Of a stretch of 64,000 nucleotides of DNA, positions 35,588-39,901 are shown in pieces. The stretch lies in contig NZ_JAERWK010000025.1 in the NCBI RefSeq assembly GCF_016918035.1, forward strand, positions 62,001 through 126,000, in the 5' to 3' direction. A program made the position numbers and the translations under genes. Within the stretch, counting starts at the first letter, position 1. Each line of letters begins with the position of its first letter. The notes beneath the pieces are model-generated. The model made no database searches. It was not told where the DNA came from and worked only from the letters and a program-made list of their open reading frames with translations. The DNA comes from Nakamurella leprariae (GTDB taxonomy: Bacteria; Actinomycetota; Actinomycetes; Mycobacteriales; Nakamurellaceae).

Positions 35588-35707
35588 TCGCGGTCCCCGA
35601 CCGGTCGGCGCCCCGGGCCCGGCCGCGGTGGACTGTCGTGCGCAACTCCTCCGGTGGCGGAGCCGTCCTGGTCCTGAGTGTGTTCCGCGGACCGCGGAGG
35701 TGATCGA

Positions 35708-35806
35708 GTGAGCGAGCGGACAGGAGTCGGCGTGCGGCACGGCAGTGGGTCAGGGGCCTGGTCAGGTCGCAGGCATCGGGGGATCCCCGTCGGCGCCGCC
35801 GCGTGA
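35708..35806 (+). CDS. Possible 32-residue leader ORF before the GT-C gene
   Basis: GTG at 35708 stands two bases after GGAGGTGATC (35696-35705), a near-perfect anti-16S match. The frame (VSERTGVGVRHG onward, Gly/Arg-rich) stops at 35804-35806, and that TGA overlaps the GTG start of the next gene (GTGA). The ribosome site is far better than anything directly before the membrane protein. I infer a short translated ORF that couples translation; the peptide itself is not recognised. Confidence 0.45.
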   Translation: MSERTGVGVRHGSGSGAWSGRRHRGIPVGAAA

Positions 35807-37866
35807 CCGCTCCGGCGCCCGCCACCGCCCCCCGGGCGACCGTCCGTGCCCGCCGGGCCTGGCCGGCGCTGGTCCTGCTCGGGGTGGGCGCCGCGGCCGC
35901 GGCGGTGCTGGTGCACCTGTGGTTGTTCCCGCTGTACTCGCTGAACCGCGACGACTCCGTGTACGTCGCCTTCGCCCGGATGATCGAGCACGGCACCTTC
36001 ACCCTCCCGGCCGACCAGGACGCCTTCCGACCGTGGGCGTCCGCGGTCGTGGACGACCGGATCGTGGTCAAGTACACGCCGCCCTGGTCGGCCGTCCTGG
36101 CGCTGGCCGGGGTGCTCACCGGCTCCGAGGTCGTCGGGCTGGCCGCGTGTGCGGGGGCCGCCGCGGTGCTGGTCGCGCTGCTGGCCGGCGAGGTGCTGGG
36201 CGACCGTCCCGCCGGCCTGGTCGCCGGGGCGCTGTTCGCCGTGTCGCCGATCGTGCTGGTGCAGAGCGGCACCTACCTGTCGTACCTGTTCGAACTGGCC
36301 CTGCTGGCGGCGGTCGGCTGGCTGTTGCTCAGCGGCCTGCGCCGTCACTCCACCCCCCGCCTGGTGGTCGCGGGCACGCTGGCGGCGGTGGCCGCCTGGG
36401 CCCGGCCGTTCGACGCGCTGCTGGTGGTGCTGCCGTTCGCCGTCTGGGCGCTGTGGACCACCTGGTCGACCCGAGACGCCGCACCGGACAGCGCCGACAG
36501 CACGCACGTGGGGACCCGGGGCCGACGCTGGTGGCGGTGGATGCTGCCGGTGCTGGCCGGGGCGCTGCCGGTCGGCGCCCTGGCCCTGGGCTACCACGCC
36601 CTGGTGCTGGGCGACCCGCTGCGGCTGCCGTACACGGTCACCGGGACCCGCGACGGGTTCGGCTTCGGCGCCCGTGGGGTGTTCGACGACGCGACGTTCG
36701 ACTTCACCCCGGCCGACGGTGTGGAGGGGCTGCTGGTCAACCTGCGCTGGGTGCCCAGCTGGATCGCCGGCGGGCTGGTGCTGCTGGTCCTGGCCGTGGT
36801 CGGTCTGCTCCGTACCCGCGGCGACCGCCGGTGGTCGGTGGCCGCGCTGGCCGTCGTGGTGCCGCTGGGCTACCTGACGTTCTGGGGCCCGTACGCGATG
36901 GGCGTCAACTGGGAGGGCGTGGTCCTGTTCGGGCCGTACTACCTGCTGCCGGTGGTGCTGCCCCTGGTCGTCTTCGGCGCCGCGGCGCTGGTCGGGCTGG
37001 TCCGGGACGGACGCACCTCGACCCAGCGGTGGCGGCGCTGGGCGGCGCCGGTGGTGGTGGTGGTCATGGTGGCGGTCACGGCGACGGCGGTGCCGGACAA
37101 GATCACCCGCAACCTGGCCGTGCAGGACGAGTTCCGCGCCATCCAGGCGCTGGTCGAGGCCGAGGTGCCCGACGACTCGGTCGTCTTCCTGCCGTTCCGC
37201 GGCAACAGCGGCTACCTGGGATCGACGCCGTTCCTGGAGAACGACCCCGACCTGGACGGGCCGGTGCTGTACGCCGAGGACCGCGGGGCCGAGGACTTCG
37301 CGGTGCTCGATCGGTTCGGCGACCGCGCGGCGTTCCGGCTGTCGCACGCGCTGCCCGGCGGTCAGGTCCTCGGCGGGCCGGTCCGCCTCGACCGGCTCAC
37401 GGTCGACCGCGGCGCCCGCATCGAGCTCCGGATCGAGCTGGACCTCCCGGACGACGCCACCGCGGACCCCGACCCAGGTCGGTCGGTCGTCGCCTACGTC
37501 GGCGACGGCACGACCGACCTGCAGACCCGGCCGGTGCCCGACCCGGCCGATGCCGGAGAGCGGATCGAGCTGGGGTGGACGGTGGCCGCGCCCGACGCGG
37601 CGACCGGGCCGGCCGGCGACGACCCGGTGGTGCGGCTGCCGGGCGACCGGAGCAGCGGTGTGCTGGCCGTCGGCGTGCAGCTGGGCGGTACCGACGGGAC
37701 CGGCGCCCGGTGGGAGCTGCGGCTGCCGTACCGGGTCATCGACGGTGGTCGGCAGCTGGAGGTGCTGCAGCCCGGACAGAGTTGGTCCCGGCCGGCCGGG
37801 ACCGGCGCGGGCTGGGCCGTCGACCTGACCTCGGGCGTCGTGACCGGGATCCCGCCGGCGTCCTGA
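35803..37866 (+). CDS. GT-C type membrane glycosyltransferase-like protein (687 aa)
   Basis: Multispanning membrane protein with 10-11 helices up to about residue 430 and an extracytoplasmic C-terminal domain of about 250 residues. The first external loop has the acidic pair of GT-C (ArnT/PMT, family 39-like) enzymes in SLNRDDSVYVAFARMIE (D50, D51), and YTPPWSAVLAL follows. Such enzymes move sugars from polyprenyl-phosphate donors on the outer face. Substrate is unknown. The gene lies between ftsQ and ftsZ, so wall-polymer or septal glycan decoration is possible but only inferred. GTG at 35803 overlaps a possible leader ORF. A strong hairpin terminator follows. Confidence 0.75.
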   Translation: MTAPAPATAPRATVRARRAWPALVLLGVGAAAAAVLVHLWLFPLYSLNRDDSVYVAFARMIEHGTFTLPADQDAFRPWASAVVDDRIVVKYTPPWSAVLALAGVLTGSEVVGLAACAGAAAVLVALLAGEVLGDRPAGLVAGALFAVSPIVLVQSGTYLSYLFELALLAAVGWLLLSGLRRHSTPRLVVAGTLAAVAAWARPFDALLVVLPFAVWALWTTWSTRDAAPDSADSTHVGTRGRRWWRWMLPVLAGALPVGALALGYHALVLGDPLRLPYTVTGTRDGFGFGARGVFDDATFDFTPADGVEGLLVNLRWVPSWIAGGLVLLVLAVVGLLRTRGDRRWSVAALAVVVPLGYLTFWGPYAMGVNWEGVVLFGPYYLLPVVLPLVVFGAAALVGLVRDGRTSTQRWRRWAAPVVVVVMVAVTATAVPDKITRNLAVQDEFRAIQALVEAEVPDDSVVFLPFRGNSGYLGSTPFLENDPDLDGPVLYAEDRGAEDFAVLDRFGDRAAFRLSHALPGGQVLGGPVRLDRLTVDRGARIELRIELDLPDDATADPDPGRSVVAYVGDGTTDLQTRPVPDPADAGERIELGWTVAAPDAATGPAGDDPVVRLPGDRSSGVLAVGVQLGGTDGTGARWELRLPYRVIDGGRQLEVLQPGQSWSRPAGTGAGWAVDLTSGVVTGIPPAS

Positions 37867-37893
37867 GGACTCCGCGGCCGGTCGCGACAGACG

Positions 37894-37931
37894 ATCACGG
37901 CCGGGACCGCAGCTGCGATCCCGGCCGTGAT
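37894..37931. terminator. Bidirectional hairpin terminator
   Basis: ATCACGGCCGGGA (37894-37906) and TCCCGGCCGTGAT (37919-37931) form a perfect 13-bp stem with a 12-base loop. It sits between the end of the GT-C gene and the end of the convergent small peptide gene, and can serve both. Confidence 0.8.
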
Positions 37932-37949
37932 GGTGTCGGAGCGACCGGT

Positions 37950-38132
37950 TCAGACCTCGAAGTCGGCGGCGTTCAGGCCGCGGAGCCGACGCGGGTTGCC
38001 CAGCAGGTCGGCGCCGGCCGCCGGCTCGGCGGCCGGTGTGCTCTCGGGGAGGTTCCGGATGCGCAGCGGGTTGCCGACGAGCTCCGACGAAGGGTGCTGG
38101 TCGGCTCCGGCGGCCGGAGGAGTGGCGATCAC
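37950..38132 (-). CDS. Small peptide with duplicated GNP-x-R-x-R motif (60 aa)
   Basis: Unrecognised small protein. GTG at 38132 follows AGAGGCAGGCACC, a usable ribosome site. The sequence carries two similar blocks: ELVGNPLRIRNLP (residues 17-29) and DLLGNPRRLRGLN (42-54), separated by an Ala/Pro/Glu linker, ending in AADFEV. No signal peptide or membrane helix is seen. It is transcribed against the division genes and has its own terminator. The repeated core and small size recall ribosomally made peptide precursors or adaptor peptides, but there is no modification enzyme I can name nearby except a nitroreductase-family protein 600 bases away. Function unknown. Confidence 0.55.
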   Translation of the reverse strand: MIATPPAAGADQHPSSELVGNPLRIRNLPESTPAAEPAAGADLLGNPRRLRGLNAADFEV

Positions 38133-38387
38133 GGTGCCTGCCTCTCTGGATCGATGGTGTGGTGCGGTAACGACGTGCAGATGGCGGCGGCCCGGACCGG
38201 ACGCACGTGTGCTCGCCGCCCGGTCGGTGCCCCACGAGATCTTCGAGTGTCCACGATGAACACCGTTGCGGTCACCCGACATCACCGTTCAGTGACGGGA
38301 ATGACCCGTTGGGGTGACCCCATCGCCACGCGCGGCGGCTGGTCGGACCGACCGCACCCCCCCCGGTGGGCGTGGTGGAATGACGGG

Positions 38388-38729
38388 GTGTCCCGCGTGC
38401 TGGTCGTGTCCGCGACCGCCTGTTGGCTGGTGAACTGCACGCTCGGTCTCGGGGTGGCCACCGGCACCCTGGACACTTCCCGGGCACGGTGGATCCACCA
38501 CGCGGCGTACGCCGCCACCGCCGGGCTCACCGCCGCCGCCGGGCTCGTGCTGGCCGTTCGCCGGGACCGCGCCGTGGTCCGGCTGCTGCCGGCGGCGCTG
38601 CCGCTGGCCGCGATCCCGTTCGTGCCGGCCCGGACCGCCGGGCACGCCGCCCTGGGGGCGTCGCTGGCCCCGGCCTACGCGGCCACGCTCTGGGCCGTCC
38701 GCGGCCGCCGGCCTGATCGGCCAGCCTGA
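38388..38729 (+). CDS. Small four-helix membrane protein (113 aa)
   Basis: Hypothetical membrane protein. Four hydrophobic stretches are visible ([72 protein letters not shown]), separated by Arg-rich turns. GTG at 38388 is chosen because the first helix follows directly. ATG at 38300 (MTRWGDPIATRG) would add 29 residues and is also possible. It is 5 bases upstream of the nitroreductase gene, so the two are probably one transcript. No family recognised. Confidence 0.55.
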
Positions 38730-38734
38730 TCGAC

Positions 38735-39529
38735 ATGGAGCTGCTCGAGGCCATCCGCCGCCGCCGCACCACCAACGGCGCCTTCCTGCCCGACCCGGTG
38801 TCCGCGGCCGACCAGCGGCTGCTCGTCGAGGTGGCCGGCCGGGCGCCGTCGCAGCTGAACTCGCAGCCGTGGCGGTTCGTGCTGATCGAGCAGCGCGCCA
38901 TGATCGAGGCGATCGCCCGGATCAGCGGCGAGAGCATGACCGAGACGATGTCGTCCGGCACGTTCTTCTCCCGGTACCGGCGGTACTTCCGGTTCAGCGC
39001 CGAAGAACTGGAGCAGACCCGGTCCGGCATCCTGTTCGACCGGCTGCCCGCGCCACTGCGGCCGTTCACCCGGCAGGTGTTCACCCCGCGGGGTCAGAAG
39101 CTGGTGAACGCCTTCCGTGTCCCGCAGCTGCTCGGCGAGGAGAACCGCAAGCTGGTCGCCGGATCGCCGCTGCTGCTGGCCGTGCTGCTGGACCGGGCCG
39201 AGTACCGGCCGGGGGAGCTGTCCGCCTTCTACTCGTTGTTCAGCATGGGCGCCGCGATGGAGAACCTGTGGCTGACCACGACCCAGTTGGGGTTGGGCAT
39301 CCAGTTCGTGTCCTTCCCGATGGAGGTGCCGTGGGCCTGGCAGCGGGTGCAGGACCTGTTGGCGGTGCCCGAGGAGCTGGAGCTGATGGCCGTCTACCGC
39401 ATCGGTCACCTGCCGCCGGAAGCTCGTCGGCCTCCGATCGACTGGAGCAGCGAACACCGGAAACGGGTGTCGCAGTACGTGTTCCGGGAGACCTGCGCCG
39501 AGCCGCAGCGGGGCTGGGACGAGTCCTGA
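38735..39529 (+). CDS. Nitroreductase family protein (264 aa)
   Basis: FMN-dependent nitroreductase fold. The N-terminal block [15 protein letters not shown] then [17 protein letters not shown] is the FMN-binding signature (S/N residues near 46-50), and [30 protein letters not shown] is the second flavin block. The middle region (about 65-130, with [19 protein letters not shown]) is longer than in classical NfsB-type enzymes and suggests a distinct subfamily. Substrate unknown. It lies directly downstream of the small membrane protein and upstream of the ftsZ control region. Confidence 0.85.
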
Positions 39530-39901
39530 CCATCCTGACCCTGCACGTGTGCCGGTGCGTGGCATGGCATCTCGAGCGTGCGTGATCGACGCGACGGCGA
39601 TCGCGCCGTGCCGACGGGACGACGCGCGGGCGGGTCCCGGTCGCATCGGGCACGCGGAGCGGCGACACGACTTCCCGACACACCGCAGCCAATGCCCGGA
39701 TGCGCGCGGTCCGCGCCCTACCTTCATCCCAGCAGCAGTTGACATAACTATAACCGTCTGGTTGAGGTCGAGGGTTGAGGGACACGCCGATCGGCGTGTC
39801 GGATCGCCCCGGCATCGACCGGGCAGCACTGGCAGCAGCCGCGAGTCGCACGCCCGCCCGGCCGTGACGAGACGATCAGACCCGAAGAAAGGGCCAAGGG
39901 G
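39530..39901 (+). promoter_or_regulatory. ftsZ: ftsZ control region with promoter-like element, direct repeat and palindrome
   Basis: 372 bases without a gene. TTGACA at 39739-39744 runs into the A/T-rich ATAACTATAAC, the only such stretch nearby and a likely promoter core. GGTTGAGG is repeated at 39760 and 39773 (13-base spacing). A perfect 20-base palindrome, GACACGCCGATCGGCGTGTC, follows at 39781-39800. The ribosome site AAGGGG stands just before the ATG. The first 180 bases show nothing recognisable. Confidence 0.6.
39781..39800. repeat. Perfect 20-bp palindrome in the ftsZ leader
   Basis: GACACGCCGATCGGCGTGTC is identical to its reverse complement. It begins one base after the second GGTTGAGG repeat and lies about 100 bases before the ftsZ ATG. 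It may be a protein site, or a hairpin in the untranslated leader. Confidence 0.85.

Follow-up and report, generated by a model that had tools for sequence, protein, structure and literature searches.

A single-gene family of small two-motif proteins restricted to one clade of Nakamurella

Proteins that bind bivalently through short linear motifs have a disordered chain in which a short conserved motif is repeated over a flexible linker. Multi-core RiPP precursors are short ORFs with repeated conserved units. The small gene described here, from Nakamurella leprariae, can be compared with both. It resembles bivalent short-linear-motif proteins in encoding a small protein with a repeated conserved motif, a flexible linker and predicted disorder, but the motif matches none of the described linear motifs in the libraries searched. 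Like a multi-core RiPP precursor it is short and carries repeated conserved units, whereas recognised nearby enzyme genes, conserved modifiable Cys, Ser or Thr residues and a leader-family match are absent. Within the same genus, Nakamurella sp. PAMC28650 has a ribosomal peptide system, a LanMbC/YcaO (dehydrazole) cluster with, in the part of the source available, long NHLP-type leaders and Ser/Thr/Cys-rich cores (PMC10676384), neither of which is seen in the small protein.

The gene and its surroundings between ftsQ and ftsZ

In the window, the whole 64,000-nucleotide stretch of DNA that was analysed, the gene sits in the ftsQ-ftsZ interval on the minus strand (37950-38132). Translation and the homologues described below define it as a 60-amino-acid ORF with a GTG start, whose product is VIATPPAAGADQHPSSELVGNPLRIRNLPESTPAAEPAAGADLLGNPRRLRGLNAADFEV. 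Read directly from the DNA, a Shine-Dalgarno-like GAGG (38141-38144, minus strand) lies 8 nt 5′ of the start, and a GAGG or AAGG at the same distance precedes three of the four family genes (those of the window, G012 and G002). An upstream GTG would give a longer, 111-amino-acid version; the 60-amino-acid start is preferred because of the Shine-Dalgarno-like sequence and the lengths of the homologues. The codon-position G+C of the ORF (0.80/0.57/0.90) is gene-like for the local DNA. The small gene is almost certainly genuine, and the original prediction of a 60-residue ORF with its own ribosome site, running against the dcw genes, holds in both respects.

On one side of the gene is a convergent gene for a GT-C-like membrane protein (35803-37866, plus strand), which matches DUF7846 above the cut-off and PMT_2 below it and probably has no functional link to the small gene. 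On the other side, also on the plus strand, are a possible small membrane protein (38388-38729), with no Pfam match over 38391-38729, and a nitroreductase-family protein (38735-39529; PF00881), to which Acg/BluB-type models match below the cut-off. A search of 41 related genomes at E ≤ 1e-20 found this nitroreductase in only one. The ftsQ-ftsZ junction (35588-39901 in the window; L157-L160) is itself variable: of 16 loci, 8 have ftsQ no more than 1.5 kb upstream of ftsZ, and close relatives have other genes 5′ of ftsZ, such as a very long repetitive ORF of 1810 amino acids in L157.

The prediction had also placed a strong terminator behind the gene, and this stands only in part. A hairpin with 22-nt arms (37891-37934), 91% complementary, does lie 3′ of the small gene, between the two convergent genes, and with its surroundings folds to -49.6 kcal/mol (z -6.6), but it has no U-run and a terminator scan found no consensus terminator there. 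The hairpin may equally serve the convergent GT-C-like gene. No sigma-70-like promoter was found for the small gene. Across the family, hairpins occur upstream of the gene in G002 and G009 and downstream in the window genome, G012 and G009, an arrangement that suggests a single-gene transcript.

Two conserved blocks in four Nakamurella genomes

The protein contains two similar blocks, ELVGNPLRIRNLP at residues 17-29 (38046-38084, minus strand) and DLLGNPRRLRGLN at residues 42-54 (37971-38009, minus strand), both of which are kept in three homologues. The best 12-residue pair between them has a BLOSUM62 score of 40, a value that no shuffle of the same residues reached in 20,000 trials; the internal duplication originally proposed is thus well founded, the more so as the two-block plan and its spacing are kept in the homologues.

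These homologues were found by protein and profile searches. When the single protein was used to search 61 genomes, one clear match emerged besides the window's own, a 50-amino-acid ORF with both blocks in G012 (E 6.7e-6). A profile built from these two rows and run on 17 Nakamurella genomes added members in G002, which is N. multipartita (E 4.7e-14), and G009 (E 4.3e-7), with G012 itself scoring E 1.6e-31 by construction. Of the remaining profile matches at E ≤ 1, those retrieved and inspected did not have the pair of blocks, and a DNA-level pattern search for paired NPxRxR units gave no further convincing case in the same 17 genomes. The family is therefore present in 4 of 17 Nakamurella genomes, with one convincing copy in each carrier. 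All members are short ORFs, of 50-61 amino acids under the chosen starts, although the start in G009 is uncertain (61 amino acids from a GTG, 96 from an upstream ATG), and each has two GNPxRxR blocks 24-26 residues apart. The search for the two blocks in related genomes that had been proposed as a check on the prediction thus yielded three other Nakamurella genomes with both blocks in the same plan. A tree of the LPG-synthase C-terminus unites the four carriers and G004 (support 100/99), and in G004, the fifth genome of this clade, the profile search did not find the gene.

Each protein carries two copies of the family motif [VL]GNP(R/L)RxR(G/N/H)(L/I), with GNP-to-GNP spacings of 24, 25, 25 and 26 residues in the four members. 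Linkers and tails vary; both blocks and the spacing are constant. Across the eight aligned blocks, the minority bases are 6 at the first codon position, 6 at the second and 23 at the third, and differing codon pairs are synonymous in 101 cases versus 55 that are not, counts in which the block pairs are not independent. Since the variation falls mostly at the third codon position, the two-block protein is maintained by selection at the protein level. The G012 protein terminates at the RRIRGL of block 2, so that residues beyond this block are dispensable. Net charges of -2, +3, +6 and +6, with the window genome's protein acidic overall, indicate that conservation does not extend to the charge of the chain outside the blocks.

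Genomic settings and taxonomic range

The four copies occupy three loci: the ftsQ-ftsZ interval in the window, a site between UDPGP and LPG-synthase genes in both G012 and G009, and a position downstream of a fadB-like gene in N. multipartita, where the copy spans C1:3900827-3900976. The G012 and G009 loci are syntenic by BLAST, and the latter also has genes for an Lrp-type protein and alanine dehydrogenase; no tRNA lies near the G009 copy. Neither the other peptide loci nor four further regions upstream of ftsZ gave a match to the window's GT-C, nitroreductase or small membrane protein. The ties to the division cluster and to these three neighbours that the original prediction implied find no support here: the other three copies are located elsewhere, with none of the neighbours near them. 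We therefore reject a dcw-linked function, as the dcw position is not conserved, and regard the dcw, nitroreductase and GT-C neighbours as incidental. No neighbouring gene is common to the three loci, and the gene therefore stands alone. A mobile cassette with shared flanks was also rejected, the upstream flanks not being alignable. Two or three LPG-synthase C-terminal paralogues occur in many Nakamurella genomes, and one such protein (L117, 9406-12099) has an N-terminal rhomboid-like membrane part.

Outside Nakamurella, no convincing member turned up among 298 genomes of the order (a sample that includes Nakamurella), 394 genomes of the class and 396 genomes of the phylum, in searches where first-look filters scored a fraction of the candidates (in the order sample, for instance, 21 of about 80 per genome). 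In the order sample, loci were obtained for 30 of 34 listed places and examined with earlier loci, 80 altogether. A match in the class sample (G424) crosses a stop, with no listed ORF there having the blocks; two in the phylum sample (G675 and G951) were also rejected, G675, the one covered by reading, being interrupted by a stop. With a single-block pattern run on 249 genomes of the order, every Nakamurella match fell within the four family loci. Of the 17 places listed, 11 lie outside the genus; 8 of these fit a stricter motif and were read, none showing a second block within 60 residues on either side.

The plasmid and phage records searched held no member, and a viral-contig match (L084) was judged to be chance, as its ORF has a single block and is antisense to a 362-amino-acid ORF. 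A scan of genome contigs found only the metagenome-assembled genome of Nakamurella sp. Chersky.9_22, at the same locus as in G009, and is a weak negative as it missed G012 and G002. The small protein has no significant match in Pfam, NCBIfam, PHROGs or PADLOC, the best hit of a PDB sequence search reached only E 1.8, and the block strings were not found in the literature. Among the matches listed for Nakamurella small proteins, RiPPs or peptides, the portions of the papers available do not describe this family. It is a new single-gene small-protein family, restricted to one Nakamurella clade.

Possible modes of action

An AF2 model, of low confidence and built on a weak alignment of four sequences, is mostly coil (mean pLDDT 61, pTM 0.18), with short helices only at residues 22-26 and 55-58, the second of which lies after block 2 and not within it. 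We tentatively favour, at somewhat less than even chances, a small, stand-alone, disordered protein that would act through its two GNP-R-x-R-x-L motifs as a bivalent linear-motif ligand. Bivalent docking is the simplest reading because there is no shared neighbour and no modification gene recognised nearby, the linkers vary, the blocks are invariant and the AF2 model is mostly coil. That the blocks are binding or processing units, as originally predicted, is still something that we would infer from the sequences.

Other explanations account for some of the same features. A two-core RiPP or processed signalling-peptide precursor, from which an enzyme encoded elsewhere would modify or release two GNP-R-R-x-R units, would fit the shortness of the ORF, its variable N-terminus and the strongly conserved units repeated late in the chain. 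This is nevertheless unlikely, as there is no conserved Cys, Ser or Thr, an export signal is not evident, Pfam and NCBIfam give no leader match, and no modification enzyme was recognised among the nearest Pfam-scanned neighbours of the copies or beside the window copy, a comparison that covers nearest neighbours only. The nitroreductase next to the window gene does not help, given that it is not near the other copies and its Acg/BluB-type matches are below the cut-off. The R-R-x-R in each block on a flexible chain would also suit a small nucleic-acid binder, for example a regulator or chaperone whose arginine blocks contact RNA or DNA. We consider this equally doubtful: the overall charge is only -2 to +6, the sole hit to a binding family is one sub-threshold zinc-ribbon (E 0.13, for G012), and nucleic-acid binding would not account for the invariance of the GNP and L residues.

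Three unrelated loci in four related genomes could point instead to a moving small gene, or one carried along by a mobile element or phage, whose role for the host would be neutral. Such an origin is improbable, more so than either role above, considering the upstream flanks that do not align, the lack of a phage, plasmid or true viral-contig match, the one convincing copy per genome and the locus common to two genomes. Spurious ORFs are many in DNA this rich in G+C, but homologues with protein-level conservation contradict a chance ORF, and the Rfam matches that might indicate a structured RNA are all sub-threshold, five of six of them falling on the hairpin; we give a chance ORF or structured RNA hardly any weight.

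On the bivalent-ligand reading, the chain would be intrinsically disordered and, with no evident signal peptide, cytosolic, and each block would be a short linear motif that docks on a partner. The GNP residues may cap a short helix whose arginines face an acidic or phosphate surface, while the L/V residues of the block would enter a hydrophobic pocket. With both blocks on the same flexible chain, binding would become bivalent and gain in avidity, and the protein could be a small adaptor for, or inhibitor of, a partner that is itself dimeric or multivalent. Against this, the three arginines per block suit nucleic acid or membrane binding equally.

The family is narrow in range, and its duplicated 10-residue motif is unusually well conserved; the presence of one member in N. 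multipartita Y-104, the type strain, opens its expression and binding to testing. A bolder and rather unlikely proposal is that of an undescribed two-unit peptide class, in which the VGNPRRxRGL repeat would either form the active core of a modified or signalling peptide of a new type or serve as a new motif for docking on some conserved machine of actinobacteria. Should the partner prove to be a conserved machine, the motif would provide it with a natural bivalent ligand.
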